Source: a bacterium BMS3Bbin13 (lineage in GTDB: Bacteria > Pseudomonadota > Gammaproteobacteria > 21-64-14). Taken from it: a DNA stretch of 60,867 nt. The notes beneath the pieces were generated by a model. The model was not told the DNA's origin. It searched no databases and was given only the letters and a program-made list of their open reading frames with translations. The stretch covers positions 1 to 60,867 of the forward strand of contig BDTW01000003.1 of NCBI GenBank assembly GCA_002897735.1, written 5' to 3'. Of this stretch, positions 5,171-33,314 are shown piece by piece; positions within the stretch are counted from its first letter, which is position 1; every line of letters starts with the position of its first letter. The position numbers were made by a program, and so were the translations under genes.

Positions 5171-5536
5171 ATGTATACGCCCAACCTTGAAATCTCGTGG
5201 CAACGCGACGTGCAACGGTTGAACCTGCTCTATCTGCGCTGTTGCCGCGAGATCGCCAAGCACGACATCGACGTGGCCGTTCTCATCACGAGATTACCAC
5301 GGTCATTCCTTTCCGCACTCGCCGCCACGCCGGTCGACCGGATGGAAGAGTGCATGCGGAATCTGCGCATACCCGCTTTTGCGCCCTACCTGCCACGGTC
5401 CGCGTTGCAGGATCTCCAGAGGGCACTAAGTGACCCTGACAGCGATATCGGAGAAATAGCAACACGCATCTCCCAATTGCTAGTTGCCCAGTGCGCGCCT
5501 GGTGCAGCCAGACCACCCGCAATCGAACCAGGTTAA
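5171..5536 (+). CDS. flhD: FlhD-like transcriptional activator subunit
   Basis: 121 aa. The pattern EISWQRDVQRLNLLYLRCCREIAKHDIDVAVLI followed by LPRSFLSALAATPVDRM matches the FlhD core (INLSYLLLAQRLI ... LGI ... L-A-LT). FlhD forms a heterohexamer with FlhC and activates sigma-70 promoters. It starts 7 bp after the ParB-like gene and is followed 10 bp later by an FlhC homologue, so the pair is co-transcribed. On conjugative elements FlhDC relatives (SetCD, AcaCD) activate transfer and excision genes; a similar role here is inference. Confidence 0.8.
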   Translation: MYTPNLEISWQRDVQRLNLLYLRCCREIAKHDIDVAVLITRLPRSFLSALAATPVDRMEECMRNLRIPAFAPYLPRSALQDLQRALSDPDSDIGEIATRISQLLVAQCAPGAARPPAIEPG

Positions 5537-5546
5537 TTTCAAATTG

Positions 5547-6065
5547 ATGAACTCGCATGTAGATTCGATACCCAACGGTCCGACGGTTGCGGAAATCATT
5601 TCTCGCATCGACTTGGCGATCGCCATGCTTTCATCCGGAATGCGGCCGCCGCTTATCGCGCGTCACCTGCATTTACCGGGGCATATGCTGCGGAGATTGT
5701 GGGAGCAAGTAAATGGACGGCCCGCCCCGCGCGGGCAGTTCCCGCCGGATTCCACCCGGTTGCTAACGGCTCCCGGCGCCACAACCGAGGCCGTCGCCTG
5801 GTGGTCAGTCTATTATCGGCTCGGGTCAGACGCCGGGGTGAACGTGCATCGCGCCATCGACCTGACTCTGCTGCTGCGCGCGCACCGGCAATACCGCCTG
5901 CTGTTCCCTCCCAAACCCGACAGGGGATTGTCACTTCAGGGGACGTATTTCATCGCACGCGATATTGTGACGCACACCGTCGAAGTTCGATACTGCAAAT
6001 CCTGCCGTATCCACTATCTCTATCACCTACAGGCATCCCTGGTCTCCTGTCCGTTTTGCGGATAG
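5547..6065 (+). CDS. flhC: FlhC-like transcriptional activator subunit
   Basis: From the ATG at 5547 the product is 172 aa. The FlhC signature is visible: a helical N-terminal region (IDLAIAMLSSGMRPPLIARHL) followed by LRRLWEQVNGRPAPRGQFP, a central YYRLGSDAG segment, and a zinc site made by CKSC and CPFC near the C terminus, which in FlhC holds the DNA-binding cluster. Length is close to FlhC (about 190 aa). It pairs with the FlhD-like gene just upstream. The stop is followed by a terminator that serves the opposite-strand operon. Confidence 0.85.
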   Translation: MNSHVDSIPNGPTVAEIISRIDLAIAMLSSGMRPPLIARHLHLPGHMLRRLWEQVNGRPAPRGQFPPDSTRLLTAPGATTEAVAWWSVYYRLGSDAGVNVHRAIDLTLLLRAHRQYRLLFPPKPDRGLSLQGTYFIARDIVTHTVEVRYCKSCRIHYLYHLQASLVSCPFCG

Positions 6066-8119: not shown

Positions 8120-9247
8120 TTATAACGTCACGGGCATAACGACGTACGTTGACGCCCACTTTTCGATGGTCGATGCCTCATCGATCCGGACCACCGAACC
8201 GGCGTCCAAGATGAACAGGTTCATCGCCCCGGTTCGACTTACCTCCAGCACGTCTCGGAGGTAATCAGGATTGAAGAGGATTTCACAATCCCCCCCGGTA
8301 ACGTGTGCGGGGATGTATTCGTCGGAGTTTTCGTTCAGGTCATTCTGCGCGGTGATATGCAGCCCCTTTTGCGAAAAATGAAAATGCACCAAGCGTTTCT
8401 CATCGTGTCCCAGCAGCAACAAGGTCGCGCGGGTCAGCGCGTCGAGAACCTCCTGCGTGTCGATCTGTACCCTACGCTCGGTTGGCGCAGGGACGATGCG
8501 CTCGTAATTGGGGTACTTCCCGTCGAGAAGCCCCGTAAGGAACTGATAATCACCAATCGTCACTCCGAAATGACGATCACCGAACTGCATCTCCACCACT
8601 CGCTCTTCATCTTTCTCGATACTGAGCAGACCGAGCAGGTCCCCGATTGCGTCTCTGGGGACAATGAAATTGCGGGACGGAAGGCTCTGGCACGGTGCCT
8701 CGATACTGCATTTCGCGAGGCGATGCCCGTCTGTGGCGACAACCTGGAGACACCCATCCAATGGCTCGAAGAGACACCCACACAGATAGGTGCGGACATC
8801 GTCCTTGGCCATGGATGCGGCCACGCCCTTCACCAGCAGGCGAAAGTCCCTGACTGGAATCTGCATCCGCTCTGGTTTCTCCTCCATCGCATCCAGCGCC
8901 GGGAACTTGTCCGGATTCAAGCTGTGCAGCTTGAACCGGCTCTTCCCGGACTTGACGCGGATGAAATCCGCGCCCTTCATCTCCTCCACTTCGATGGGCG
9001 CCTCGCTCGGAAACGTTCGCACGATTTCATGAAACTTACGTGCGGGAAGGGTAATGCGTCCCTCATCGAGGGAAGCACCCGCCAGGTTGAACCGGATCTG
9101 GCGCATCAGATCCGTGGCGGTCAGGGATACATCCGACCCCGCGGATTCCACCAACAAGGTGGATAAGATCGGGTCGGATTTCGATGCGATCATCGAGAGC
9201 CGCTGGAGCGGCTTCTCGAGATCTTCTTTCGTGAAATGGAATTTCAT
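8120..9247 (-). CDS. dnaN: DNA polymerase III beta subunit (sliding clamp)
   Basis: 375 aa from MKFHFTKEDL at 9247, with GGAG about 11 bp upstream; the longer start at 9262 is less likely. The three tandem clamp domains are evident (LPARKFHEIVRTFP in domain 1, ATDGHRLAKCSIE in domain 2, NPDYLRDVLEV in domain 3, ending YVVMPVTL like the usual MPMRL end). The clamp tethers polymerase III to DNA. As an extra copy on a mobile element it could bias replication toward the element. Its divergence from chromosomal DnaN cannot be measured here. Confidence 0.95.
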   Translation of the reverse strand: MKFHFTKEDLEKPLQRLSMIASKSDPILSTLLVESAGSDVSLTATDLMRQIRFNLAGASLDEGRITLPARKFHEIVRTFPSEAPIEVEEMKGADFIRVKSGKSRFKLHSLNPDKFPALDAMEEKPERMQIPVRDFRLLVKGVAASMAKDDVRTYLCGCLFEPLDGCLQVVATDGHRLAKCSIEAPCQSLPSRNFIVPRDAIGDLLGLLSIEKDEERVVEMQFGDRHFGVTIGDYQFLTGLLDGKYPNYERIVPAPTERRVQIDTQEVLDALTRATLLLLGHDEKRLVHFHFSQKGLHITAQNDLNENSDEYIPAHVTGGDCEILFNPDYLRDVLEVSRTGAMNLFILDAGSVVRIDEASTIEKWASTYVVMPVTL

Positions 9248-9456: not shown

Positions 9457-11328
9457 CTACGCCGCCGCCTTGGTTGCAAGACGTTTGCGCAGCAGTGCGA
9501 ATAATGTTGAAGCGAGATCCTCAACGCGGTTGATATATACCGCGCTTGGAAACAACGAGTAAATCCCGGGACTCCCAATGCCAATCCCGATGCATTCGAT
9601 CCCTGAACGCTCCATCTTTTCAATGATGGATTTTGTGCCGTCCATGTCATTGGGTTCCCCGTCCGTCACCACGAAACAGAGTTTCCGGGTCTCGGGGCGA
9701 TAAACGAGCCGAGAGGCAACCAGCCACAGCGCCTCGGTCATCGGAGTACCACCCTCGGCGTTTATTCCGAATTCGGCTGGGTTTGTTCTCGCGCCGAATC
9801 TCTTCAGCCTATACACCTCCTGAGGGGTTCCTCCGGGGAACGCGCTCACTTCCACTTCTGTCTTCGGGATGCCTGCTAGGGCGATCGTGACCGCAAGGAC
9901 GGATTCCACCGCCATCCCGATCCCACCCGACATCGAACCGGAACGGTCCAACAGGATCGAGACCGCCGTATCGTGTTTCACGACACGTTCCTTACCCCGG
10001 AATATCCTGGGATCCCCCGTAAAGATGCGTGGGAGACGACGGGTGTCCAGACGCCCCACCCGGCACAATCTCCGCCGTTCCAACCGGGTTGCCTGAACCA
10101 GGCCGGCAAGTTTCGCACGGATTCCCGCGCTAACCTGACGAACCTTGGCTATGTCCGGAGTACTGGATATCTTTGGAGCGCCACCGTATCCGGCGATGGT
10201 AATCCCCCGGTTGTTTGCGGTTACTTCCTTCTCCACGGACTGTTCCAAGTTTTGGGCCGTAACCTCACTGACCCCCTTGGGGAGATCGTCTTCCGTGGCG
10301 TCAGCAACTCGTTTGGCGGCTTTCACCTTTTCATCGGGTTCCTCGGATTCGCCGGGTTCGCCGGGTTCGCCGGATTCGCCGGGTTCCTCGGGTTCCTCGG
10401 GTTCGCCGGGTTCGCCGGGTTCCTCGGGTTCCTCGGGTTCGCCAGGTTCCTCGGGTTCGCTGGATTCTTCGGGTTCGCTGGATTCTTCGGATTCTTCGGA
10501 TTCCTCGGATTCCTCGGATTCCTCGGGTTCGCCGGGTTCCTCGGATTCCCCGGGTTCCTCGGATTCCCCGGGTTCCTCGGATTCCCCGGGTTCCTCGGAT
10601 TCCCCGGGTTCGCCAGGTTCGCCGGATTCGCCAGGTTCCTCGGGTTCGCCGGATTCTTCGGATTCTTCGGGTTCGCCGGGTTCGCCGGGTTCTCCCGGTT
10701 CCTCGATCTCGGGTTCCTCGGGTTCCTCCAGTGATTTCAGGATCCGCTTGGCGAGAGCCAGGCTTTCCGCTGTCGACTCCAGGGATGGAATCTTCCCGAT
10801 CAATGCTCGAATTCGAACTGCGGCGCCTCTCGGGAACGTCTGTTCCAATACTTTGGTCGCTTCTTTCGCAACCGGCTCGAGAACTGGGCGATTCCGGAAT
10901 CGGTAGGATCCCTCCACCCAGACATATCGGAGCAAAATGTTCGCTGGGTGAGAATTTTCTTGGGGTGACGAAATCGAACCGTCTTCTACCAGACGGTCGA
11001 CCAATTTTGCCAGATTCGTCCGGCACCCGGGATAATGGGCCTCCATGAGACCTTCAATTCGAACATCCTCAATCACGCTCGTGAGGCTATGTTCTACCGG
11101 TGTGGCGCCAGCCACCGTCATATCCGTGAACCGGATATGGCCCGACTCGTGATCGATGTATCCGCGAGCCAATATCTCACAAGTGTCGCTGTCCTCCGGG
11201 AGAGAGGGGAGGACAATCATCTTTCCATCCGTATATGCTTGGTTCCCACCGATCCTCACATCGACCCCGAGCTTGTCGCCCAGGGCGCGAGCGACGATCG
11301 GTAGAGACCGCAGTAATGTCGTACGCAT
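9457..11328 (-). CDS. CobT-like vWA-domain protein with long acidic repeat linker
   Basis: 623 aa from the ATG at 11328 (AGGAG 8 bp upstream; the frame is open further but lacks a better start). N-terminal region has a zinc-metalloprotease-like motif ([12 protein letters not shown]). The C-terminal third is a von Willebrand A domain with a MIDAS motif ([11 protein letters not shown], then TDGEPNDM). Between them is a roughly 150-residue tract of E/P/G/S repeats, encoded by hexamer-like DNA repeats, that opens several shadow frames. It belongs with the DUF3150 and AAA+ genes upstream, as in CobS/CobT-type modules. True cobaltochelatase activity is not implied. Confidence 0.8.
10330..10735. repeat. 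Low-complexity repeat tract inside the vWA gene
   Basis: A run of imperfect 6-18 bp units (GGTTCCTCG, GGATTCGCC) coding for E, P, G and S. It could expand or contract by slippage without breaking the frame because the units are multiples of three. Confidence 0.85.
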
Positions 11329-11534
11329 AGCGCGTCTCCTCATTGCCCGGAAACTCCGGGCGATTTCATGTTGCAATAGCGGGAACGCCCCGCGGGCGGG
11401 GCCGTGGGCGGCCCGGGAAGAAACTCGCATGAGGAGACGTGACCGTCGGCGCGGTCCACAAAACCTTTCCGCGCCCCCTCGCGGGGAGGGGCCCTGGAAA
11501 GGCCCGGCGCGTACGCGCCGGGCGGGAAAGTCCT

Positions 11535-12512: not shown

Positions 12513-12563
12513 CGGAACACTCCTTAAAAGGCACCGGGGGCCGAGGCCCCCGATGCCACGAGA

Positions 12564-12935
12564 TTAGATGAACCATGGATTCCCGGGCTCTCCTTTTCGT
12601 GAAAGAACCGAGGAAGTAAGCGAAAGAAGTCCAAGATCCTCCGCCTGTTGGCGCAACACATCCGAAAGCGGCATTCTCTTTAATGTCTCGATCGGGTGGA
12701 GGTCGCTTCCATCGTCGTTCGCGACCGAAACACGGGCGCCGTGGACACTCAGCACAATCGCCGAGACATACCGCTCGACATCCGCCTCGTCTTCCACAAT
12801 GAAGGAAACAGAATCACCGGAAGACGTGCCTTCCAGGAGTTCCTGGAAAGCGTCAAGCAGGTTGGCAGGAAGAATGGCTTTCGCTTGTTCCGCGCCGGCG
12901 ACCACATCGACGTATAGCGGGAACGGCGCACTCAT
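12564..12935 (-). CDS. Small protein of the AAA+/vWA module, unknown function
   Basis: 123 aa. The start overlaps the AAA+ stop codon (ATGA), so translation is probably coupled. The sequence is acidic with alternating hydrophobic strands (VSFIVEDEADVERYVSAIVLSVHGARVSVAND). No family recognised; its place in the module suggests a partner or inhibitor. A GC hairpin (GGGGGCC/GGCCCCC) lies just after its stop at 12536-12554. Confidence 0.65.
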   Translation of the reverse strand: MSAPFPLYVDVVAGAEQAKAILPANLLDAFQELLEGTSSGDSVSFIVEDEADVERYVSAIVLSVHGARVSVANDDGSDLHPIETLKRMPLSDVLRQQAEDLGLLSLTSSVLSRKGEPGNPWFI

Positions 12936-13906
12936 GTCGCACCATCGCCCTTGCCGAAGTTATCGTCACCGAAATGACGCTGTACCAGCTCGTGCAGTGC
13001 CTTGCGCGTCGTCGGCTCCGCCCGGAACGCAACCGCGCGGTCCAGGCCATGGAGGAAGGGATTGACCCCGGAGGAGGCGAGCGCCCGATAGAACCAGGCA
13101 AGTCGGCCCCAACGAATCAAGCTGCGGGTCGAAAGCGTTACCTCGATCGAGCCGGGATTCTCGTCACTTCCCACGAACAGATTGCGCACTTCGTTTGCAA
13201 TCTCCACCATCCGGGACCGAACCAGCCTCGGAAGATCCGGAACGGCCTTCGCGAGGATCTCCTCTTCCTCGCTCGGTTCCGGGTACGTGAACCGTAGGAT
13301 CCATCCACGGTCCATCAGGGCCAGATTCTGGCGCACCGTACCCTGGTACATCCCGGACTCGTCACCGTTTCCGGCGGTGTTGCCGGTGGCGACAAACCGG
13401 AACTCCGGGTGCGGCTGGATAACCTCTCCACCGTTTTCGGGAATAACCAACGGGGCGCCTTCGAGCACCCCGTTCAGCCCAGCCGCCGTACCCGGATCCA
13501 GAAGGTCGAACTCATCCAGGAGAAAGAGATGGCCCACCTTCATCGCCCGGGCCAGCGGCCCGTGGCAGAACCGCATCGATCCGTTCACAATCGTGTGGGA
13601 TCCGACCAGCTCGGGGAACTCCAGGCGCGAATGCGCCGATACCCGTTGCAGCGGGAGATTCAACTTCGCCGCCACCTGGGAGACCAGGGAGGACTTCCCG
13701 CACCCGGTCGGGCCGGAGATATAGAGGGATTCCCCCCGGCCTTCCTTCAGCCAGGCAAGGAAATCGGACAACGCCGCGCGCCGAAACCGATAGTTCGGAT
13801 CCGCCGGCGGTGTGAATTCGCTCGGGGCGTCATACCCCTTGATTTTCACTCCCTTGGGTACGCCGGGGAGCGCGAATGTCTCGGCGATCGAGAAAAACTT
13901 TTCCAT
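12932..13906 (-). CDS. CobS-like (MoxR-type) AAA+ ATPase
   Basis: 324 aa from the ATG at 13906 with AGGAGG upstream. Walker A is SGPTGCGKSS, Walker B LFLLDEFDLLD, sensor-type RFVATGNTAGNGDESG, and an arginine-finger region in the C-terminal half. The order and spacing match CobS/MoxR ATPases that act with a vWA protein (here 9457-11328) to remodel or insert a metal or cofactor. In mobile elements such modules have unknown targets. It heads the four-gene module and follows a 226-bp leader without a gene. Confidence 0.85.
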   Translation of the reverse strand: MEKFFSIAETFALPGVPKGVKIKGYDAPSEFTPPADPNYRFRRAALSDFLAWLKEGRGESLYISGPTGCGKSSLVSQVAAKLNLPLQRVSAHSRLEFPELVGSHTIVNGSMRFCHGPLARAMKVGHLFLLDEFDLLDPGTAAGLNGVLEGAPLVIPENGGEVIQPHPEFRFVATGNTAGNGDESGMYQGTVRQNLALMDRGWILRFTYPEPSEEEEILAKAVPDLPRLVRSRMVEIANEVRNLFVGSDENPGSIEVTLSTRSLIRWGRLAWFYRALASSGVNPFLHGLDRAVAFRAEPTTRKALHELVQRHFGDDNFGKGDGAT

Positions 13907-14132: not shown

Positions 14133-15131
14133 TCAATAGAACCATTCGTTGTTCTTTTTCTCTTCCTCTTCGCGGGGACCGAAATGCAGCGAAATCCCGG
14201 CCTCCTCGTGAATCGTTATTCGCACACCCTCCGCGGAACGCTTTCGATATTGATCAAGGTCAACCTCGATCTTGTTTTCCTTGAGCAGGCGCTTGTAATC
14301 CACCGTCCCTTTCCTTGCATAGCGCGTAACGGCGAGATGCTCGGCATCCGCCATCAAAAACTCGCCCATCATCTCGACAAGCGTTTTTTTAATGGACTCC
14401 TGTTGTACCTGTAGCGAATCCAGGTTGGTCTTGAGTTCCGACACCCGCTCGCTGCGTTTGAGGTACTCCTTCGCGAGTGCCCGCCACTGCATGGCGGACT
14501 CCCCGGTGGGGACGAACAGGTCGCGCTCCGGATCGGGGGTGGGTTCTTTGTCCGGAACGAACTGTTCGGCCCAGAACCGTTCGCCCGCCTCAATGATCTT
14601 TTGGATCATTTCGTCATCCCTGGCGACCATGAAATGCCGGCAGGTGGTTCCGTCGGGGGACAGGAACGCCAAGATGCCCTCGGCGGCCTCGATGACGAGG
14701 AGTTGCTCCTGCACCTGGGGCACGTATCGCCGATACGCGACACTGTTCTCTGCATTTTCCAGGATATCGTTCCAAACCTTTTCCGAGGGGGATTTCAGTT
14801 CCGTCGGCCGCCCTCCTTCGTCTACTCCGTCAAGCGATGCGCGGAAAAGCGGGTTCTTCTCCCACTCAACGCACACGGGGAGCAGGGGCCCGAGGTTCAA
14901 CTCTGCTTCGAGCCGGTCTCTGGCGACCGACTCCATTCTCTTTCCCCTCCGTATATTCGGGTTGCGACTGATATCCGGCTCGACCACGCGACCGGTTTTC
15001 TCCATCCACAGCCGCCAAATGGTTTTTTTATCGGACACGCCAAGAAGAACAGCCGCGTCGGATGCGGTCAGACCACCCTTTCGCCAAGTAAGCCATTCCG
15101 GACTCCCTTGGGCTAAGTTTATGACTTTCAT
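14133..15131 (-). CDS. YqaJ-like viral recombinase (lambda exonuclease family)
   Basis: 332 aa. Opening residues GSPEWLTWRKGGLTASDAAVLLGVS are the YqaJ/lambda-exonuclease signature. Catalytic residues of the PD-(D/E)xK site are visible as RASLDGV and TELKSPSE, followed by YVPQVQEQLLV. The enzyme degrades one strand of duplex DNA so that a partner annealase can load. RecT at 19.1 kb is that partner. A long C-terminal helical extension is present. A conserved leader repeat (15160-15285) lies directly upstream. Confidence 0.88.
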   Translation of the reverse strand: MKVINLAQGSPEWLTWRKGGLTASDAAVLLGVSDKKTIWRLWMEKTGRVVEPDISRNPNIRRGKRMESVARDRLEAELNLGPLLPVCVEWEKNPLFRASLDGVDEGGRPTELKSPSEKVWNDILENAENSVAYRRYVPQVQEQLLVIEAAEGILAFLSPDGTTCRHFMVARDDEMIQKIIEAGERFWAEQFVPDKEPTPDPERDLFVPTGESAMQWRALAKEYLKRSERVSELKTNLDSLQVQQESIKKTLVEMMGEFLMADAEHLAVTRYARKGTVDYKRLLKENKIEVDLDQYRKRSAEGVRITIHEEAGISLHFGPREEEEKKNNEWFY

Positions 15132-15159
15132 CGTCTAATTCTCTCCGTTGTCAATCCCT

Positions 15160-15285
15160 CTGTTGTGGGTTCTCCCTGGACCCCGTGCGTCACTGGGGAA
15201 GCCGGCCAGTTCCGGACCGCGCAGGGCGGCTTGAAACATTTCCTATCGGCCGCAGTGCGACGCCATAGGGAATATCTCGAGTACT
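15160..15285 (-). ncRNA. Structured leader repeat, copy 1 (upstream of the exonuclease)
   Basis: About 115 nt, roughly 80 percent identical to 18632-18750. On the minus strand it folds into an ATTCCCTAT/ATAGGAAAT stem capped by CGCACTGCG, and a GGTC/GGCC arm; differences between the copies keep pairing (C-G changes to U-G). In both cases the repeat is upstream of a minus-strand gene. No known riboswitch class is recognised. The rest of 15132-15473 includes GTGCCCACG/CGTGGGCAC and CGATACGGGT/ACCCGTATCG hairpins. Confidence 0.55.
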
Positions 15286-15473
15286 TTTCTGAAAAGGAAG
15301 GGGGTGCCCACGCAGTAGCGTGGGCACCGAAGGCACGATAAAAATAGTGTTTTCGATCGATACGGGTTTTGTTCTACCCGTATCGGCGGGTACGCCCCCG
15401 ACCCCGTCGAGCGGCGGGTGGCGCCGGAAGAATCCGCGACCAGATGCGGGAAGTGAAGAGGGACTTCGGTACG

Positions 15474-15557
15474 TCAGGTGAGACCCAACGCCCGAGAAAC
15501 CCGGATTACGGGGATCGACAAAACGACTCCCGTCAAGATGACCGTGATGAGGAGCAT
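15474..15557 (-). CDS. Possible 27-residue hydrophobic peptide
   Basis: ATG at 15557, GGAG about 12 bp upstream, TGA at 15474. The product MLLITVILTGVVLSIPVIRV... is a single membrane-spanning segment. Upstream, ACACCTCCCGG can pair with the GGGGGAGGTGT that precedes the start. Short and unsupported by homology. Confidence 0.3.
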   Translation of the reverse strand: MLLITVILTGVVLSIPVIRVSRALGLT

Positions 15558-15696
15558 GCCCTTCTCCACACACCTCCCCCGTCCGGGAGGTGTGAAATAA
15601 CCTCCCGGGACGGCGGGGTGTTCGGGTCGAGCGATTCCGACTCAACTCGTCAATGGAAACGGTTTCACCGTGCCCCGGAAGGGTGGTTGGACTGTT

Positions 15697-16167
15697 TTAC
15701 AACGGCAGGACGCGAACGGTACCCGATTGTCCCCACCTGTTTCCGGGTGAGTAAATCACCTGGACCTGCTGTCCGGGCGCGAAGTTAAATTCCTTTTCGA
15801 CGACGGCGATGATGCGACCGTCGCGCAGGCGGATTGTGATTTGATTCACCTCCTGCTGCGCGAAGTGCTGTTCTACCCGGGAGCCGAAAATTCCCCCGAA
15901 GATTCCTCCAGCAACGGTTGCAAGTAATTTACCCGCGCCATGGCCGACCTTATTGCCAAGGGCGAGGCCGGCGATACCACCGATCACGCTACCGAGGTTC
16001 TTGGCGCCGGTGCTGCCGTGGACTGGCTGCACCGCAATCACATGGCCCAAGAGCACATTATTCTGGGTCATGCCGTTGTAATACTGATGGGGGTTGTATC
16101 GGGCAGCCATCGCACTTCCGGACAAAAGGCAGAGCGACAGACCAACGATCATTCCGAACTTCTTCAT
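15697..16167 (-). CDS. Glycine-zipper outer-membrane/lipoprotein-like protein
   Basis: 156 aa from the ATG at 16167 (AAGGAGG upstream). It begins with a Sec signal peptide (MKKFGMIVGLSLCLLSGSAMA). The central region is a glycine zipper (GGIAGLALGNKVGHGAGKLL, then AGGIFGGIFGSRVEQ), as in the 17-kDa antigen/SlyB family of cell-envelope proteins. The C-terminal half is a beta-rich domain (ITIRLRDGRIIAVVE). A longer start at 16281 would put about 38 residues ahead of the signal and would run through the leader. Its leader is duplicated upstream of the next gene. Confidence 0.75.
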   Translation of the reverse strand: MKKFGMIVGLSLCLLSGSAMAARYNPHQYYNGMTQNNVLLGHVIAVQPVHGSTGAKNLGSVIGGIAGLALGNKVGHGAGKLLATVAGGIFGGIFGSRVEQHFAQQEVNQITIRLRDGRIIAVVEKEFNFAPGQQVQVIYSPGNRWGQSGTVRVLPL

Positions 16168-16240
16168 TTCCGCCTCCTTCAAATCCGGGAGGCGCGGATA
16201 CCCCGTGTTACCGGGATATAGCCTCCCCGGTATTGGGGTT
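16168..16240 (-). promoter_or_regulatory. Leader that can sequester the ribosome site, copy 1
   Basis: On the minus strand GCGCCTCCCGG can pair with the downstream GAAGGAGGCG that contains the Shine-Dalgarno sequence, or with the upstream CCGGGGAGGC. A third hairpin (ATATCCCG/CGGGGTAT) lies between. The two exclusive pairings look like an on/off translation switch. Copy 2 is at 16403-16475. Confidence 0.6.
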
Positions 16241-16246
16241 TCAGTG

Positions 16247-16402
16247 TTAGTCGATCTTCCGCAATTCGCGCATATCCGCACGGAACTTCACGACGAGTTG
16301 CCTCGTCGTGACACGTAGGTTTTCCCAATCAGAAATGATTTCGCGATAAATCTCCGATATTTCACGCAGCAGATCACCGCGACGATTATGAACCTCTTTC
16401 AT
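16247..16402 (-). CDS. Small protein, 51 aa
   Basis: ATG at 16402, TAA at 16247; product begins MKEVHNRRGDLLREISEIYR and ends MRELRKID. Highly charged and helical, with no cysteine. It is preceded by an almost exact copy of the leader of the downstream gene, with the same AAGGAGGCG and spacing, which supports it as a real gene. Function unknown; a regulator or DNA/RNA-binding peptide is possible. Confidence 0.6.
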   Translation of the reverse strand: MKEVHNRRGDLLREISEIYREIISDWENLRVTTRQLVVKFRADMRELRKID

Positions 16403-16475
16403 TTTCGCCTCCTTCAATCCGGGAGGCGCGAATACCCCGTGTTACCGGGATATGGCCTCCCCGGTATTGGGGTTT
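16403..16475 (-). promoter_or_regulatory. Leader that can sequester the ribosome site, copy 2
   Basis: About 90 percent identical to copy 1 and keeps all three pairing segments: CCGGGGAGGC, GCGCCTCCCGG and GAAGGAGGCG. It starts right before the 51-aa gene. The stretch upstream (16476-16662) holds a terminator-like GGGG hairpin at about 16580-16611 for the coiled-coil gene. Confidence 0.6.
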
Positions 16476-16662
16476 GAGATAGCTGAGATAGCCGGTGTTT
16501 ACGTGCTCGGCGACACGGCCCTATTTCCATAGGACGGAAAAACTTCTTGCGTGCCTCCGGCTCAAACCGAAGGCACCTAAGAAGCCCCCGGATAAAATCC
16601 CCGGGGGGCGGAGGGTATCGCTGTTATCGAAGAAGGGGCGCACCGAGCGGCACGCCAGGGAA

Positions 16663-17142
16663 TTAGTGCAGCAGAAACTTCGACAGATGTAGGATATGCA
16701 ATGCGATTGGATTGGTGATCGCGACGATCACGAGTGTCGCGATCATCAGGAACCGCATTGTATCGAATTTGCGATCCATCTCGGAATGGACCTTGGTGAA
16801 CCCCTCGGCCATTCCGGAACGGACCTTGGTGAATTCCTCGGACATTCCGGAACGGACCTTGGTGAATTCCTCGGACATCTCGGAACGAACCTTGGTGAAC
16901 CCCTCGGACATCTCGGAACGAACCTTGGTGAACTCCTCGGACATCTCGGAACGAACCTTCACAAACTCCACCGTCATTTTGGAGTCCAGGTCCTTAATGT
17001 CCTCGTGCGTTGCCACACCTTGCGTAAAAGCCATAATTAAAGCCTCCGCATGGGCGTTCGCGCACGCCTCGTCGATGCCCGCCTTGCGGAGCGTATTTGT
17101 GTACGCCAACGTGTCGAACGGAATTCGCATATTCGTCTTCAT
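16663..17142 (-). CDS. DUF1640-like coiled-coil protein with C-terminal membrane anchor
   Basis: 159 aa. GGAG lies 7 bp before the ATG. The centre is six tandem 11-residue units of the form EEFTKVRSEMS (residues about 58-120), a right-handed or long coiled coil. A single hydrophobic segment near the C terminus (LMIATLVIVAITNPIALHIL) anchors it. N-terminal DTLAYTNTLRKAGID resembles DUF1640/CCDC90 proteins. The repeat is also visible in DNA (33-bp units). Role unknown; a membrane tether for the replication or envelope machinery is inference. Confidence 0.75.
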   Translation of the reverse strand: MKTNMRIPFDTLAYTNTLRKAGIDEACANAHAEALIMAFTQGVATHEDIKDLDSKMTVEFVKVRSEMSEEFTKVRSEMSEGFTKVRSEMSEEFTKVRSGMSEEFTKVRSGMAEGFTKVHSEMDRKFDTMRFLMIATLVIVAITNPIALHILHLSKFLLH

Positions 17143-17399
17143 TGCAATTCTCCAGCACGGTCCAATACCGCCTGGAGGGTGCCCCTGGGGTGCGCCCCCA
17201 AGGGTATCGGAAGTAGAATAGGACGTTTACCACGGCTGCGCAACGCATCGGCGTGAACCGCCGCCCGTTGCCACAAGATCCTTACCGTGAAAGCTTAAAA
17301 TTCACGGAGTTCCAGGTGGCCGCTACCCGTCGAATCAGGTATCCATGAGAACCTTGGCTGTTCCTATTTTTGTTCTCCAATCTTTCTTCCCCTTGGAAA

Positions 17400-17421
17400 T
17401 CCCCGGCGCCGAAGCGCCGGG
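17400..17421 (-). terminator. Hairpin after ssb (likely terminator)
   Basis: Minus strand CCCGGCGC-TTCG-GCGCCGGG perfect stem with a stable loop, followed by a short ATTTCC tail. The U-run is weak, so termination may be partial. The rest of 17143-17454 holds no gene I can support. Confidence 0.55.
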
Positions 17422-17454
17422 AGATTGGTTTTACGTGTTCCCGTTACATAGCCT

Positions 17455-17913
17455 TCAAAACGGGATATCGTCATCGAAGTTGACGGGGGGCGGGGCCTCC
17501 TGCCTACGAGTGGCCGGGGCCGACGCCGGACGGGAACCTTCGCTTTGGGAACGCTGCTGGGGCTGGCCCTGCGCGTCTCCGCGACCACCGAGCATCTGCA
17601 TGTTCCGCGCAACGATTTCCGTCGTGTAGCGGTCGACTCCGTCCTTGTCTTGCCACTTCCGCGTCTGCAGGCTCCCTTCGACGTAAACCTGAGAACCCTT
17701 TCGCAGATATTCCGCGACGACTTCCGCGAGGCGACGGTAGAACACCACCCGGTGCCACTCGGTGCGTTCTTTCTTCTCGCCGCTCGACTTGTCCGTCCAG
17801 GACTCGCTGGTGGCGAGGGTGATATTGGCCACCGCGCCACCGTCGTTGAAATGTCGCGTTTCCGGATCGGCGCCGAGATTGCCGACCAAAATGACCTTGT
17901 TTACGCCTTTCAT
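17455..17913 (-). CDS. ssb: Single-stranded DNA-binding protein
   Basis: 152 aa. OB-fold is obvious from [16 protein letters not shown], through [20 protein letters not shown] and [17 protein letters not shown]. The tail ends in NFDDDIPF, the acidic peptide that recruits SSB partners such as RecO, PriA and exonuclease I. AAGGAG lies before the start. It follows the WGR and NrdD-like genes and precedes the coiled-coil gene, and is a natural partner of RecT and the exonuclease. Confidence 0.96.
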
Positions 17914-17928
17914 TTTTTACTCCTTTCG

Positions 17929-18318
17929 TTAAAAAAACCATTCGGACGGATCCGCTTTCTGCAAAAGGTTCACGTCCAATGGGCGCTCCTTCCGCTTCGA
18001 CCGAACCGTCGGTTTTTGGGTTGGATGCACGGATGATTCCGTGCTCGTATGGCGATGGGAAAGCGCATCAAAGGCCCCCAGTGGGATCCGACGATACCCT
18101 TCCCCCTCCTTCTGCTTGGTACGTACCAGTACTTCAGCAAGGCACGCCGGCAGAGGTCTGGTGGTGTGTGTTGGAAAAACAGATTTCAAACTTGTCCCTA
18201 TTCGCCCATAAAGGATGACGATATGGGATTTTTCTTGTGTTCCTAAAATCCGGATTCTCCAGATCTTGTCGGAGCCGCCGTTTTGAAAGCGGAAAGCCCG
18301 ATCAAAAAGTGTGTTCAT
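17929..18318 (-). CDS. WGR-domain protein
   Basis: 129 aa. The first 70 residues match a WGR domain (KIWRIRILGTQEKSHIVILYGRIGTSLKS), a DNA/nucleic-acid end-binding fold known from PARP-like and plasmid proteins. The C-terminal half is basic (TVRSKRKERP). It overlaps the upstream NrdD-like frame by 17 bp and ends 15 bp before ssb, so it is probably co-transcribed with ssb. A DNA-repair accessory role is inference. Confidence 0.75.
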   Translation of the reverse strand: MNTLFDRAFRFQNGGSDKIWRIRILGTQEKSHIVILYGRIGTSLKSVFPTHTTRPLPACLAEVLVRTKQKEGEGYRRIPLGAFDALSHRHTSTESSVHPTQKPTVRSKRKERPLDVNLLQKADPSEWFF

Positions 18319-18490
18319 CGGTATGCGCCGTCTGCGCGCGTACCTCGCGGAAAAACCGGCGTTCCGCGTGCTCGGACTGTTTGCCGGGATTGAACTCCGA
18401 CACCGGCCGGTGGTAGCCCATTACGCGCGTCCAAACCTCGCAGGGTTGGCGCTCCTCGTCCGTCAACGTGATCGTGGGGTCCTTGCTCAT
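18302..18490 (-). CDS. Small NrdD-like C-terminal domain protein
   Basis: 62 aa containing CEVWTRVMGYHRPVSEFNPG and GKQSEHAERRFFRE, the pattern at the C terminus of anaerobic ribonucleotide reductase (NrdD). Stand-alone short versions exist on many plasmids and phages. The glycyl-radical catalytic part is missing, so this is not a reductase by itself. It may be a remnant or a small regulatory/zinc protein linked to nucleotide supply; a full class II reductase lies 2 kb upstream. Confidence 0.65.
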   Translation of the reverse strand: MSKDPTITLTDEERQPCEVWTRVMGYHRPVSEFNPGKQSEHAERRFFREVRAQTAHTDEHTF

Positions 18491-18609
18491 CAGTTTTCGC
18501 GGGAGACCCCGGCGTTTAAGCCGGGGAGGGATAGCGCGGCGGCAACAGCCGCCCCATTCCCGCTCCTCCTTTGGTCGGCGCTATCTTCGGTTGCATGAAA
18601 TGCGTATAC

Positions 18610-19015
18610 ACATCGCTACGGTCTATTTTGGGTTCGCTCTGGGACCCGTGTGTTACTGGGAAGCCGGCCAGTTCCGGGCCGCACGGGGCGGCGTGAAGGA
18701 TTCCCTATCGACCGCAGTGCGGCGCTATAGGGAATCGCTCAAGGGGTTCTCTTGCGATGAAAGGATGAGCGGTGTCCCACAGCTACGGAAACACCGAAAA
18801 CAGAAAGGCGAGCACAGGCTCCCTACATAGGGAGCTGCCAGCGGTCCCGAAACTAATGCTCCGGGAGGTGGCGGCTTCGCCAAAATGAACCCGACGGCGA
18901 CTGCTCCGGGTTTATGCTCCTGTCCCGCAGAGGCGGTAACAGGGTGGATTCCGTCCGGGTGACCCGGACTCATTAGGGGCCGTTGAACCCCTGGGTTAGC
19001 CTTCCTAACGAGGCA
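18610..19015 (-). ncRNA. Long structured 5' leader / candidate ncRNA (includes repeat copy 2)
   Basis: No credible gene in 18491-19109. A strong promoter at 19022-19051 (minus) would start a transcript at about 19015. Successive perfect hairpins are visible: GTTAG/CTAAC, AGGGG/CCCCT, GTCCGGG/CCCGGAC, CCTGT/ACAGG, AACCCG/CGGGTT and GGCG/CGCC. The part 18632-18750 matches the leader repeat upstream of the exonuclease. It may be a stand-alone RNA or a regulatory leader for the NrdD-like/WGR/ssb genes. Confidence 0.5.
18632..18750 (-). repeat. Structured leader repeat, copy 2
   Basis: See 15160-15285. Here the ATTCCCTAT/ATAGGGAAT stem is perfect, and CCCGTG/CACGGG pairs where copy 1 pairs with a bulge. 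Confidence 0.55.
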
Positions 19016-19021
19016 TACCGA

Positions 19022-19051
19022 GATCAATACCACTCACAAAAGCCACTGTCA
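19022..19051 (-). promoter_or_regulatory. Sigma-70-type promoter (minus strand)
   Basis: TTGACA, 17-nt spacer ending GAGTGG, then TATTGAT (close to TATAAT). The GAGTGG-TATTGATC block is identical at 26280-26293, where it also faces left. Confidence 0.65.
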
Positions 19052-19109
19052 ACCGGAATCATCGAGAAAGAACAGGGGGCCGAAGCCCCCTGGAAATACA
19101 CCCCGGTAG

Positions 19110-20081
19110 TTATTGCTGCACCTCCCGGTAGTCCGCCTCCTCCGCCGGCGGGGGGGAGGGTGGGGCTTCGTTGCCCTCGGTTTCCCTTGCCTTGCGGAGT
19201 TCCCCCAAGGCGTACGCCTGGTCGTGACCGTGAAACTGGGACTTGATATAGTCCTCCGCGGCCTGCCAAGCATTTGCGGCCCTGGCCCGCGCAATGACCG
19301 CCGCGGTTTTGGCCCGGGCTTTCGGTGACGCCTTTTCAGGGTCCTGGTCCACTGTGGTAGCCGGCTCGCTTTCGTACTGGCCGTCAAGTACAAGACCCTC
19401 TTCGTTGTCCTCGTTGAGAATCTTGATCGCCTGCCCGAATCGGCCACCGATACGCGGCCACGTTTTGGCCGCGCGCTTGATGATGACCTTCTTCATCATC
19501 TCGTGCGGCCATGCGGATTCCATCCATGGACCCTTGTTGTTCTGGAAGGCCTTCGAACGGTCGCGGGCCTTGAAGATATCCTCGGCCGTCATCACCTCGA
19601 TCAACACCTCGGACCCGGAGCCAATCCCCGAAATGCAATATCCGCCGATGAACTCCCCGCGATCGGTGGCAAATGGGTTGAACACGTGAACCGGTGCGGT
19701 CGCGGGACCACGGTACTCGAACTTGTCCTTTGAATGTACGAGTTCCGCTTTTGCCCATCGGATGGAATCGCAATCGGTTCCGATCTTTATGAGTCCGCGA
19801 TAGGAGATGTCCAGGCACACGATGCCGTCGCGTGGTACCAGGTGCGCAAGGCTCAACGCCGGATTCAATGTGAGTCCGACGGCGGCCACATTGACCATCG
19901 CCATCCTCAGTGAGACCGGGTTGCCTTCCGCGACCCTCATGAGACCTTTGTTCTTTATGCACGCCTGATAGGCGTACAACGCTTCCGCGTTGTAATCCAG
20001 GCCGGTCTTGGCGGCCAACTTCGAGAACTTCGGCTGTGCCTCCGTAATGGCGGTACGCCACGATTCTGCTGCTTCACTCAT
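19110..20081 (-). CDS. recT: RecT-type single-strand annealing recombinase
   Basis: From the ATG at 20081 the product is 323 aa. RecT core features are visible: LGLDYNAEALYAYQ-like start, then NVAAVGLTLNPALSLAHLVPRDGIVCLDISYRGLIKIG, and GYCISGIGSGSEVLIEVMTAEDI. Such proteins anneal complementary single strands after exonuclease resection. The tail is basic/glutamate-rich. The exonuclease partner (YqaJ-like) is at 14.1 kb; the pair forms a red-like recombination system. The start at 20126 in the same frame is less likely. Confidence 0.88.
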   Translation of the reverse strand: MSEAAESWRTAITEAQPKFSKLAAKTGLDYNAEALYAYQACIKNKGLMRVAEGNPVSLRMAMVNVAAVGLTLNPALSLAHLVPRDGIVCLDISYRGLIKIGTDCDSIRWAKAELVHSKDKFEYRGPATAPVHVFNPFATDRGEFIGGYCISGIGSGSEVLIEVMTAEDIFKARDRSKAFQNNKGPWMESAWPHEMMKKVIIKRAAKTWPRIGGRFGQAIKILNEDNEEGLVLDGQYESEPATTVDQDPEKASPKARAKTAAVIARARAANAWQAAEDYIKSQFHGHDQAYALGELRKARETEGNEAPPSPPPAEEADYREVQQ

Positions 20082-20225
20082 CGCTTTCTCCCGTGAATCC
20101 CGCACCGCAGATACGGTGCGGACCAAAGGTTGATAGGGGGGAATCGAAGGTCGGGCCAGTACATGGGGCGTTCCCTCTCTTCCCTCGCCTGCCGCTTGTC
20201 ATCCTGATAACCGCGGGGCTCGCGG

Positions 20226-23763: not shown

Positions 23764-23804
23764 GATGTTAATCTACGATCTTCATGGTTCCGCCTTCGGT
23801 TCCA

Positions 23805-24044
23805 TTGACATCCTCTCCGGACTGAAGGCCGGAGATTCCTACGGTGCTCAGGGGCGGCATCGAGCCGCCCCTGAGTCGCTTCGGCTGCTGGCGGCATTAC
23901 CGCACCGCTCACTTCACAGGCGAACCGGGCGTGTCCCGCCCTTAAAACACTCGCCATAGCAGAAAACTCCGGGAAACGGCACAGGACGGCTACGCCGTCC
24001 GCGCTATCCTTCCCCGCCCTCAACGGCGGGGCTTGCCGCGCACC
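23805..24044. mobile_element. Palindrome-associated mini-element with IS200/IS605-type ends (no transposase)
   Basis: About 240 bp. It begins TTGACATCCTCTCCGG, then holds a perfect CTCAGGGGCGG/CCGCCCCTGAG hairpin, GACGGCTACGCCGTC and CCCCGCC/GGCGGGG, and ends GCTTGCCGCGCACC. No coding capacity. Layout is that of non-autonomous elements mobilised by TnpA of the IS605 family. Confidence 0.65.
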
Positions 24045-25869: not shown

Positions 25870-26479
25870 TTTCTTTCTCCGTCGCACGCCGGAGTTAAAA
25901 AAGGCCCACGGGACGTGCGTTCCCGGGGGCCAAGATAAAGCCCGGAAGCGCACGTCTCCCCCAAGTGGGGGCGAGCGCGCCCCCGGACGGGGTAAAACCA
26001 TAAAGGTGCATAGCAATACGGCGTTCCTCTCATGCGGATTGCCTCCGCGTAGGAACGACCCCATTCGGCCATGCGCCGGGAATTTTAGCGACCCCGCGCT
26101 GAATAACGCACCGGTCCGCCCGCTTTGAAGCCAGGACGATTGCCCCGGCTCAATCTTTATCCGCTACGCGTGGTGGCGGATTCATCTCTCGGCCATGATG
26201 CTGACCGGGGATTTCCAATGCGCGGGTTATTTTTCGTGGCCCGCGGGCCGCGTCCGTCCTAAGACGGAGACTACGCCACGATCAATACCACTCCGGGCTC
26301 CGGTTTGTCAAACCCGATTCCCCCAACGTCGCCCATCCGGCACCTCGTTTACGAATACCTCGCCCAAAACTCACGTATTCATTATCAGATGGGTGTTTCT
26401 TGCGCGGCATACTCCCCCCCATCCAAGCGGCGGCGGGCTTTCGGCTCGCTAAAAATAGGTCGAAATCCAGGGGGATGTC
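25870..26479. other. Divergent intergenic region (transcription split point)
   Basis: No gene is supported here. All genes to the left (except 25433) read left and all to the right read right. It holds GGGGGC/GCCCCC-type hairpins near 25918 and 25960, a GCGGGCCGC palindrome near 26245, and a strong minus-strand promoter at 26287-26317. Confidence 0.6.
26287..26317 (-). promoter_or_regulatory. Sigma-70-type promoter (minus strand), same block as at 19022
   Basis: Minus strand: TTGACA, 18-nt spacer ending GAGTGG, then TATTGATC. It would start a leftward transcript toward the 25869 gene. Confidence 0.6.
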
Positions 26480-27295
26480 ATGGCGGAAGACCAAGATTCC
26501 AGCACGGCTCGAAACACCCAGAAAGGCCCGCGGCGCTCGCGGCGCATCAACTTGACCCTGAGCTATCCGGCGCTCCTGCAACGCGTGACGTTCGGAACGC
26601 CAGAGGTGCAGACGCTCTACCAAGTGGCGTTCAACTCCGCCAACGCAAGCCTTGGGAAAATCGTCAAATTACGCGTCAACGAAGGGGTGCCGGAATCCAT
26701 CCACCAGTTGGAAACACTGTACCGGGGGATACTCGACGAGCGCAAGTCCACCCTGGACACGGAGCGGACACGCATCCGGTCGCTCATTGAGGAAAATGGC
26801 ATTGACGCGGAAATCGATCACTCGGAGGCGATCGAGTTCCAGGCCCGCCTAACCACGCCCTGGTCGCGTGGGTACCTCGAACTCTACCGCCTACTCGATG
26901 CGGCACTGCTAGACCTGCGGTTGCTGTGGCTGGCGGAGATCATCGACACCCAGCAGTTCCAGCGCGATGTGAAGTCACTGCGCCGCTTGGTGCTTGGGGT
27001 TCGCGGCTTGGTGATTTCCGCCGTCAACACCGCCTTCCAGGAAGCAAGCGTCCGCGACGGCGGCGAGCCCCCCTCTCCGTCCGACGACGATGCCGCTCCC
27101 GCGCCCAAGCGGGCCGCCCGCAAAAGAAAGACCCCGAATGGGGGCAGCGCTCCCAAGGAGGAGGGTGATGTCCACGACGAAGCCGGCGCTGGCGTGTCCG
27201 GGGGGGATGGGAAGGTTGGAGAAAGCGACGCGCCGCCGGTGACGGGCGATTCACCGCCCTCCATCGAGTCCGTAGGCGAGTTCCCATCCACTTGA
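26480..27295 (+). CDS. DUF1845 / PFL_4669-like protein (AcaB-related, tentative)
   Basis: 271 aa. A long helical core (SIHQLETLYRGILDERKSTL, RGYLELYRLLDAALLDLRLL, IIDTQQFQRDVKSLRRLVL) resembles the ICE PFL_4669/DUF1845 family, whose member AcaB is a DNA-binding co-activator on IncA/C plasmids. The C-terminal 80 residues are a low-complexity tail (KRAARKRKTPNGGSAPKEE). If correct, this fits the FlhDC-like pair at 5 kb. It is the first gene after the split point. The similarity is judged by eye. Confidence 0.5.
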   Translation: MAEDQDSSTARNTQKGPRRSRRINLTLSYPALLQRVTFGTPEVQTLYQVAFNSANASLGKIVKLRVNEGVPESIHQLETLYRGILDERKSTLDTERTRIRSLIEENGIDAEIDHSEAIEFQARLTTPWSRGYLELYRLLDAALLDLRLLWLAEIIDTQQFQRDVKSLRRLVLGVRGLVISAVNTAFQEASVRDGGEPPSPSDDDAAPAPKRAARKRKTPNGGSAPKEEGDVHDEAGAGVSGGDGKVGESDAPPVTGDSPPSIESVGEFPST

Positions 27296-27303
27296 CTCCG
27301 AAT

Positions 27304-27330
27304 TTGCATTCTCAGCCGTTTCGATATCCT
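27304..27330 (+). promoter_or_regulatory. Promoter TTGCAT-N15-TATCCT with GGTTGAC/GTCAACC operator
   Basis: Boxes at 27304-27309 and 27325-27330. A 7-bp inverted repeat GGTTGAC-6-GTCAACC (27334-27353) covers the expected start point, where a repressor could bind. Confidence 0.6.
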
Positions 27331-27378
27331 TGTGGTTGACCATTCTGTCAACCCAACTTAACGAAGGAGTTGTTGCCC

Positions 27379-28251
27379 ATGAAGAAAAACGCCCTGTTCT
27401 CCCTCCTGTCCGCCGGGGCTCTGTGTATCGCACCGTTCGCGGCCTCCGCCGGGACCGCCCCACTCAACCCGGCCATCGCCAAGACCCTGAGCGCGGTTTC
27501 CGTGGCCGGCGGTGGACTGCATAACCACTATTCGGAGTGGTCCGAAGGTCTCAAGAGCGCCTCCTCGCGGCCCAATTCCCTCGACCACGAAAGCGGAAGC
27601 CTCGGGCTGTTCCGCTTCACGCTCTCCCATCGGTTCCATACCGGCGTCTGGAGCGAGGTCCGCTACGACTTCGGCACCGGGGATACCGCCTACACCGGGT
27701 ATACGCAGTCTGGAGCCCCCACATCGGCCACCACGGGCAATACCGTCCACGACGTGCGCGCCCGCGTGGGCTATCCGCTTGCCCTGGCCCGCAACGTCGC
27801 CCTCCTCCCGTTCCTGGAGGGTGGGTATTACCGGTGGGACCGCACCGTCGACCAGGGCACTCCGCTTGCTTACAACGAACTCTACACGAGCGGCTACGTC
27901 GGTGGCGGCGCCAAGTTCCTCTATGCAATCACTCCGCGGTGGGTGGTCTCCGCAAGCGCCGATGCCGGGTCCACGGTCAACCCCGACACCGACGCATCGG
28001 GATTGGTTAACTACTCCGGCGGGCTTGGAACCCACACCTACGCCGGTGCGGCGTTCCAGGAGGACTACCGGGTGCGTGGCAATTGGCACCTGTTCGCCCG
28101 CATTTCCTATCGCTACTTCGGGTTCGGGCGCTCGAATGCCCTGCCGGCCACCGTGGTATCCAATGGCGCCACCATCAACACAACCGCCACGGAACCCAAC
28201 AGCACCACCGAGCAGGTTCGCTACTCTCTCGGCGTGGCGTATGACTTCTAA
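27379..28251 (+). CDS. Predicted outer-membrane porin-like beta-barrel protein
   Basis: 290 aa from the ATG at 27379 with AAGGAG upstream. Clear Sec signal (MKKNALFSLLSAGALCIAPFAASA). The mature protein has about ten alternating amphipathic strands (VWSEVRYDFGTGD, VALLPFLEGGYYRWD, WHLFARISYRYFGFG) and ends VRYSLGVAYDF with a C-terminal Phe, as outer-membrane barrels do. Substrate unknown. A 285-nt gene overlaps its stop. Confidence 0.82.
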   Translation: MKKNALFSLLSAGALCIAPFAASAGTAPLNPAIAKTLSAVSVAGGGLHNHYSEWSEGLKSASSRPNSLDHESGSLGLFRFTLSHRFHTGVWSEVRYDFGTGDTAYTGYTQSGAPTSATTGNTVHDVRARVGYPLALARNVALLPFLEGGYYRWDRTVDQGTPLAYNELYTSGYVGGGAKFLYAITPRWVVSASADAGSTVNPDTDASGLVNYSGGLGTHTYAGAAFQEDYRVRGNWHLFARISYRYFGFGRSNALPATVVSNGATINTTATEPNSTTEQVRYSLGVAYDF

Positions 28252-28525
28252 GCCGCGCCTCTCCCCTTGCCGCCAGGGACGGCGGCTTTTTTCCTCCCGA
28301 CCCGGGGAGCCCTCCAACCAGGGGAAGCAGGCGGAACAGGAAGTTCGCGAGGTTTGTGCCGCGCTTGCTCTGCGGATTTCCTCTTTTCTCCCGGGCGGTG
28401 TCGGCCGACGCGACAGCAACGAGATGCGCCGCGCATTGCACGATGCAATCTTGGACGACACGCTTTACGCGCAGATGCGTGCCGCACTCGATAACCCCGA
28501 TCTTCCTGTTCCAGGTGAGATTTAG
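28241..28525 (+). CDS. Small protein of unknown function, 94 aa
   Basis: ATG at 28241 overlaps the barrel gene stop (ATGACTTCTAA). The second half is helical and charged (GKQAEQEVREVCAALALRISS, then RRALHDAILDDTLYAQMRAAL). Not recognised. Coupled to the next gene, which starts directly after its stop. Confidence 0.5.
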   Translation: MTSKPRLSPCRQGRRLFSSRPGEPSNQGKQAEQEVREVCAALALRISSFLPGGVGRRDSNEMRRALHDAILDDTLYAQMRAALDNPDLPVPGEI

Positions 28526-28768
28526 ATGCCTACCTTGCTGCCTTTTCCAAGCCCGAAAACCCGCGCATTACGCGAGCGGCGCGTCGAACTTGTAACGCGG
28601 GTTCTAATCGACACCTTGTGCGAGGTTCCGATACCGGCGCTGCTCGATGCGATTGCCGTGGGGCACCGTCGGCTCGCTACCGGAAGCAACGTTTTAAAGG
28701 CGGTGGACGCTGGCGTAGATGCCGCGGAAAACTGGTGTTCCGCTCATTTCGTGGAAATAGCTCCGTGA
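28526..28768 (+). CDS. Small protein of unknown function, 80 aa
   Basis: ATG directly follows the previous TAG. Helical, no membrane segment (TLCEVPIPALLDAIAVGHRRLATGSNVLKAVDAG). Overlaps the next gene by 4 bp (GTGA). A chain of four tightly coupled small genes runs from 28241 to 29504; their products may form a complex, but this is inference. Confidence 0.55.
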   Translation: MPTLLPFPSPKTRALRERRVELVTRVLIDTLCEVPIPALLDAIAVGHRRLATGSNVLKAVDAGVDAAENWCSAHFVEIAP

Positions 28769-28974
28769 AGAGATCCTGTTCCTCCGATCCGGCGACCGTC
28801 ATTCGGCGCCATAACCGGGTGCTGTCCGATTTGGTCGACGAGGCACACGAACGAGCCCGGTTGGACAAGAAATTCCGCCTATCCGGCTATTTACGCGGAC
28901 TCGCCACTGTCGAGCGGTACCCGGAGATCCGCGCGGCCCTATTGGCGTTGGCTCAAAAAGCGCGTCGGTCGTGA
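28765..28974 (+). CDS. Small protein of unknown function, 69 aa
   Basis: GTG start overlapping the previous stop. Product has the helical NRVLSDLVDEAHERARLDKKFR segment and RGLATVERYPEIRAALLALAQ. No family recognised. Confidence 0.55.
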   Translation: MKRSCSSDPATVIRRHNRVLSDLVDEAHERARLDKKFRLSGYLRGLATVERYPEIRAALLALAQKARRS

Positions 28975-31201: not shown

Positions 31202-31223
31202 CGCCCCGGGATAGATTTGACCC

Positions 31224-31775: not shown

Positions 31776-31854
31776 GTCCATCCGGCCAGCTTTTCCCTGA
31801 GTTGCTTTTTCCGGGGAACGCGCGATAAAAATCCACCCCCAAGGAGAAATCCAA

Positions 31855-33297: not shown

Positions 33298-33314
33298 CCC
33301 TTAAGTCGAACAGA

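Follow-up and report, generated by a model that had tools for sequence, protein, structure and literature searches.

A non-coding leader unit occurs twice on the minus strand of the window, the whole stretch of 60,867 nt analysed here, once directly before a YqaJ/lambda-type exonuclease gene and once at the head of a group of genes that includes an SSB gene. The duplication is real and it lies in a plasmid-like mobile element. We favour, at about an even chance, a reading of the pair as a promoter-leader cassette that was duplicated and places the exonuclease and the SSB operon under joint control. The features discussed are listed in Table 1.

Table 1. Positions of the leader copies, neighbouring genes and regulatory candidates in the window
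Feature	Position	Strand	Basis or remark
121-aa ORF in FlhD/AcaD position, just before the FlhC-family gene	5171-5536	+	
FlhC-family transcription activator	5484..6065	+	Pfam FlhC 8.2e-7, over cut-off; genome search 1.7e-7
YqaJ/lambda-type exonuclease gene, directly downstream of copy 1	14133..15131	-	Pfam YqaJ 1.4e-19
Copy 1 of leader unit	15155..15336	-	blastn, alignment, model R1 match 212.9 bits
Hairpin A, copy 1	15303..15328	-	11 pairs, about -25 kcal/mol, terminator-like, poor U tract
SSB gene, third downstream of copy 2, about 0.7 kb on	17455..17913	-	Pfam SSB 2.4e-40
62-aa NrdD-C-terminus-like ORF, first gene after copy 2	18302..18490	-	Pfam NRDD 1.5e-8
13-codon upstream ORF, between copy 2 and NrdD-like ORF	18516..18557	-	sequence
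Copy 2 of leader unit	18618..18803	-	blastn, model R1 match 212.8 bits
Hairpin A counterpart in copy 2, diverged	~18770-18797	-	-11 kcal/mol
Upstream leader found in copy 2 only	18804..19017	-	run of GC-rich hairpins, z -4.2 (on 18804-19013)
Promoter-like site TTGACA-17-TATTGA	19024..19052	-	read from sequence
Terminator-like hairpin after RecT, setting RecT apart from the copy-2 unit	19073..19092	-	
RecT annealing protein gene, upstream of the copy-2 unit	19110..20126	-	Pfam RecT 2.8e-20

The duplicated leader unit

When positions 18610-19040 were compared with the whole 2.69-Mb genome by blastn, the leader unit was found in two copies and nowhere else. Copy 2 matched positions 15159-15281 with 82% identity over 123 nt (E 8.7e-28), and with relaxed scoring the copies were 75% identical over 179 nt (E 8e-29). 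No comparable pair appeared in 100 rounds with block-shuffled leaders. The longest identical run between the copies is 23 (P 0.08), and the differences are scattered across the unit. A preliminary description of this DNA had placed two copies on the minus strand, at 15160-15285 and 18632-18750; blastn bears out the places and the strand, and the coordinates were good. The extent of about 115 nt given there was too short, because a 5'-side hairpin (GGTGCCCACGC..GCGTGGGCACC), which has diverged in copy 2, belongs to the unit and brings it to about 175-180 nt. Model R1 was built from both copies, hence its high scores on them, and its other rows in the window were weak chance matches or the same palindromic hairpin as read from the opposite strand.

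Both copies are non-coding. They differ by one-base and five-base indels, and the substitutions between them are spread over the codon positions (4, 6 and 7). In the single plus-strand frame that is open in both copies, changed residues outnumber silent changes, and the ORFs overlapping the copies have no match in PHROG. On these grounds the unit is not a protein-coding gene. The preliminary description had recognised no Rfam-type riboswitch, in agreement with a scan of 14900-19300 with Rfam 15, which returned no family at the gathering cut-off; with E up to 10, the scan returned one sub-threshold row (19.2 bits against a cut-off of 30). A hammerhead-like string near 18975 (CUAAUGAG) has neither the conserved core nor Rfam support and was discarded.

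No homologue of the unit was found by blastn in phages and plasmids (72,556 plasmid records, E up to 1) or in 55 related genomes, and exact unit patterns found none in viral and genome contigs. Two sets of viral pattern matches, of five and two, were rejected, since they had the pattern alone in common or lacked a convincing model R1 match. Searches with model R1 found no homologue in 369 genomes of the same class and 398 of the same phylum (overlapping samples, stricter filters), in the orders to which two hosts of related elements belong, or in loci around related RecT/YqaJ genes and plasmid modules. Two weak model R1 hits (17.7 and 22.8 bits) are inside reading frames, one of which reads as NuoF, and they were attributed to chance.

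Genes around the two copies

Both copies, the only two, stand immediately before minus-strand genes that belong to one module, which speaks for a cassette. The gene after copy 1 also matched the RecE-like group of PHROG and the lambda-exonuclease family of NCBIfam. Its ATG is about 30 nt from copy 1, whereas the NrdD-like ORF starts about 130 nt from copy 2, and this inequality speaks against a cassette. A predicted outer stem would hide the exonuclease Shine-Dalgarno (P up to 0.9), but it was rejected as it disappears when the assumed transcript ends change.

After copy 2, the NrdD-like ORF is followed by a weak WGR-like ORF and then by the SSB gene. The preliminary description stated that both copies precede genes of DNA recombination or ssDNA handling, which is correct for the exonuclease directly after copy 1 but less so for SSB, only the third gene after copy 2. 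The 13-codon ORF has a very strong Shine-Dalgarno (AAAGGAGGAGCGGGAATG). The 62-aa ORF is free-standing, matches only the C-terminal part of the anaerobic ribonucleotide reductase NrdD, and has no clear Shine-Dalgarno. A hairpin common to 23984-24040 also sits between copy 2 and this ORF.

Copy 2 starts about 215 nt past the promoter-like site. In this site, TTGACA is a perfect -35 (19052-19047) and is followed by a 17-nt spacer, but TATTGA is weak (3/6 against the -10 consensus), and the site was absent from the output of a consensus promoter scan. To call it a strong promoter, as had been done, was thus an overstatement.

Folding of the leader unit

On the minus strand the two units folded better than shuffles (z -4.13 and -4.70), compared with -3.16 and -1.93 on the plus strand, and the strand preference of folding is weak. 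Among 19 pieces of 180 nt from the coding background, the mean z was about -1.4 and the extreme -4.4.

We asked how many pairs survived the differences between the copies, with several tests on one sequence pair, so that all P values in this paragraph are uncorrected. For the copy-1 fold, 48 of 59 pairs were kept against 43.4 with random substitutions (P 0.04), and in its core 34 of 40 were kept (P 0.02); the reverse direction gave P 0.29 and, for the core, 0.02. The energy on the expected fold gave P down to 0.002. The consensus fold contains four two-sided (compensatory) changes, and such changes showed no excess over chance (P 0.12-0.80). In RNAalifold, the opposite strand and the minus strand had equal numbers of one-sided changes (6 and 6), with two-sided changes at 2 versus 4. 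The observed differences give mild support for pairing, and a structure is suggested, not proven. Pair-preserving differences, as noted in the preliminary description, do exist, but they exceed chance only mildly (three of the four comparisons gave P 0.02-0.04). The covariation it claimed was overstated, given the two-sided changes and the equal one-sided changes on the opposite strand. What stands of its interpretation is that the two copies are non-coding, match no Rfam family and have folds that beat shuffles; the covariation as stated does not. Its further suggestion of a stand-alone RNA found no support.

Element context and the FlhC-family regulator

The minus strand of the window carries genes for a CobT-like VWA protein, DUF3150, a CbbQ-type ATPase, the YqaJ exonuclease, SSB, RecT and ribonucleotide reductase, and the plus strand carries helicases, an O-like replication protein, DnaB, a methylase, RecJ, an HNH nuclease with a HEARO RNA, and 16 tRNAs. 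The set ssb-RecT-exo-CbbQ-DUF3150-VWA is the module of MobH conjugative plasmids, which in Vibrio p123 and Marinobacter pHL2708Z5 runs ssb, RecT, exonuclease, ATPase, DUF3150, VWA and toprim primase, and it speaks for a cassette. Judged by its genes, the element resembles MobH conjugative plasmids. A MobH-type relaxase is encoded on another contig of the genome, and it may or may not be part of the element.

The window also encodes an FlhC-family regulator, of the same family as AcaC/SetC, which matched plasmid-borne FlhC-family regulators with tblastn E values down to 2e-13. The 121-aa ORF before it matched no family. By analogy with AcaCD/SetCD, the regulator is a candidate master activator of the element. 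Outside the unit, the window shows no clear enrichment of any 20-nt piece of it, which speaks against a cassette, and an element-wide operator inside the unit was rejected for lack of such enrichment.

Several other features of the window were observed. The HEARO RNA and the HNH/RRXRR (IsrB/IscB-like) nuclease that follows it (43193-44778, plus strand) are flanked by a 204-nt direct repeat (41259-41462 and 44849-45052, 92%), as if insertion had accompanied a duplication of the neighbouring sequence. A related contig (G263:C4) encodes a nuclease 60% identical to that of the window. The array of 16 tRNA genes is followed by an RtcB-type RNA ligase (50169-51814, plus strand). A long array of 9-nt repeats lies within the CobT-like VWA gene (10254-10830, minus strand), and 33-nt repeats lie within a coiled-coil gene (16744-17007). 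Short repeats resembling IS200/IS605-type ends (ATTGACATCCTCCCCGG..CCGGGGA) are scattered at 1258-1305, 18498-18554, 23802-23851 and 46296-46329.

Leader repeats in related elements

By self-comparison, six of nine related plasmid loci carried repeats shared by the leaders of different genes, which counts for a cassette; 49 kb of E. coli K-12 contained no such repeat. The three loci without such repeats count against a cassette. Loci with repeats of their own are those of an IncA plasmid, a Salmonella island, Vibrio p123, Microbulbifer pTHAF38_a, Marinobacter pMAD49a and pQBR55. In the IncA plasmid (L059), a repeat of 136 nt (96%) precedes both the ATPase gene and the DUF3150 gene, with an identical offset in each case, and a 59-nt part of it stands before a third gene (repeat positions 4732-4866, 9053-9188 and 13505-13563). 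The leader repeat of the Salmonella island (L065) is 134 nt long (97%). In both, the 96-97% repeats precede AAA ATPase and DUF3150 genes and have no Rfam match; the two are close relatives and count as one case. Leader repeats were also found within the element of a genome of the same class (G090; locus L014 on contig G090:C1). There, a GC-rich double hairpin is present in four copies (11280-11427, 12528-12580, 13583-13633 and 17750-17901), which stand before RecT, ribonucleotide reductase and neighbours.

The repeated leaders of the relatives have no sequence in common with the unit of the window, which again counts against a cassette. Their final hairpin often contains the Shine-Dalgarno together with the start codon. 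Such a hairpin is absent from copies 1 and 2 but present in a second leader pair of the window (16182-16244 and 16416-16478, minus strand, 95% identical), where a GC-rich hairpin is followed by a Shine-Dalgarno hairpin (GCCTCC..AGGAGGC) and then ATG. This second pair speaks for a cassette. Mean pairing of the Shine-Dalgarno for module genes was 0.60-0.72 in related plasmids versus 0.51 in E. coli; a general hiding of Shine-Dalgarno sequences across module genes is not compelling overall.

Possible functions of the leader unit

Under the favoured reading, the promoter-proximal 5' leader of a MobH-plasmid-like element would act as a cis-regulatory cassette, one copy of which was duplicated and retained before a second operon. 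The lambda-type exonuclease and the SSB operon would thereby come under the same control, probably via the FlhDC-type activator of the element or another element-encoded factor acting on the unit. Its transcribed part would fold into several hairpins, and these would most likely govern translation or elongation of the genes that follow. In IncA/C plasmids, bet/exo are directly activated by the FlhDC-like AcaCD (PMC4207636), and therefore repeated promoter regions would have a published explanation there; in SXT ICEs, the recombination operon has SetCD bound in front of it (PMC4344509). The FlhC homologue of the window and the folding of the units (z -4.1 and -4.7) also count in favour of a cassette. 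The alternative of duplicated promoter/operator DNA is, in the relatives of the element, at least as well grounded as an RNA reading.

The readings overlap, and their likelihoods should not be added up. Somewhat short of an even chance, and overlapping the cassette reading, is a structured cis-acting RNA, in which the transcribed fold and not the DNA is selected, for example as an operator of translation to which SSB, RecT or some other protein of the element would bind. The minus-strand z values (-4.1/-4.7 versus -3.2/-1.9 on the plus strand), the kept pairs, the fold energy, the two-sided changes of the consensus fold, and the exonuclease and SSB genes downstream are all consistent with it. 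However, the two-sided changes are at chance level, the opposite strand has the same number of one-sided changes in RNAalifold, the hiding of the exonuclease Shine-Dalgarno is lost under other assumed transcript ends, and no repeats of the UUAAA type of the T4 operator were seen by eye in the exonuclease leader. The unit could instead be a neutral leftover of an old duplication or a small mobile element, with folding ordinary for GC-rich DNA. The absence of homologues from the sequences searched, the scattered differences with a longest identical run of 23, the coding stretches of the window that fold equally strongly (z to -4.4), and the other transposon remains in the window would fit such an origin. 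We nevertheless consider it unlikely, as two stretches of non-coding DNA at equivalent places are still 82% identical; moreover, the second leader pair (95%) and the comparable pairs of related plasmids point to a function.

Two further readings draw on particular systems. As a put-type antiterminator, the nascent RNA would bind RNA polymerase and let it pass terminator-like hairpins in the operon. Two diverged copies head two operons, copy 2 begins about 215 nt downstream of a promoter-like site, and terminator-like hairpins occur downstream (for example, 14127-14104 after the exonuclease gene, and 16613-16599); yet neither model R1 nor blastn found a match in HK022 26000-40000, and the unit is more than twice the put length, so we regard this as very unlikely. 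Still more improbable is a single-strand DNA promoter of the Frpo/ssi type, which would become active on entry of the transferred strand into a recipient. In its favour, the copies are diverged, rich in hairpins and on one strand, with an ssb operon downstream, in an element like a MobH plasmid, but nothing in the plasmid collection is similar, and the TTGACA/TATTGA site is outside the unit and largely unpaired in the DNA fold.

More broadly, the unit might be the first-seen member of a new class of cis-acting RNAs that coordinate the recombination genes of conjugative elements, through protein sensing or antitermination. The sequences of such RNAs would evolve fast and be specific to each element, and the unrelated leader repeats of IncA/C-type plasmids and other MobH plasmids would be counterparts in function. 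Nothing searched outside the element matches the two copies, which therefore do not establish a new class of RNA, and we consider this a rather improbable proposal. Should the favoured reading be true, a copied leader would link exonuclease and SSB expression in elements of this group. The design would then be open to testing in IncA/C-type plasmids, which are tractable and have long, almost identical leader repeats. Repeats shared by leaders within a single element also offer a simple clue to regulatory cassettes in mobile elements whose close relatives are unsequenced.

Comparison with known systems

T4 gp32 binds a translational operator on its own mRNA. Copy 2 is similar to the gene 32 operator in being a structured leader before an SSB gene. 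That operator combines a 28-nt pseudoknot with UUAAA repeats located at the ribosome site (PMC535899), and no UUAAA repeats were seen by eye in the exonuclease leader. The putL and putR sites of HK022 are about 70 nt long with two stem-loops, one adjoining the promoter and the other about 270 nt downstream (PMC9378689). Similar to the unit, they are two diverged structured copies at the starts of two operons, but they are shorter and have two stem-loops only. Neither model R1 nor blastn gave a significant match in HK022 26000-40000, a record in which the put sites are unannotated.

Frpo sequences are found just upstream of ssb genes (PMC11541004). Like the unit, Frpo/ssi sequences are hairpin-rich, repeated and located before ssb operons of conjugative elements. 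The -35 and -10 boxes of such a promoter would be paired in the folded single strand, whereas the promoter-like site of the window is largely unpaired and outside the unit, and the search of the plasmid collection (72,556 records, E up to 1) gave no match.

At the AcaCD/SetCD promoters of IncA/C plasmids and SXT/R391 ICEs, an element-encoded FlhDC-like activator drives recombination genes, and the window has an FlhC homologue. A promoter of this type would carry the binding motif of the activator next to its -35 box. Even SetCD and AcaCD differ in their binding motifs (PMC4344509), and the window has no clearly enriched shared 20-mer as a candidate operator. The IncA/C-type leaders (for example, those before the AAA ATPase and DUF3150 genes of pPSKoxy4_2) have no sequence similarity to the unit, and in them, unlike in copies 1 and 2, the Shine-Dalgarno and start codon often lie within the last hairpin. 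Nevertheless, these leader repeats of about 60-136 nt lie just upstream of module genes and, like the unit, they are non-coding, form GC-rich hairpins and belong to the same module.
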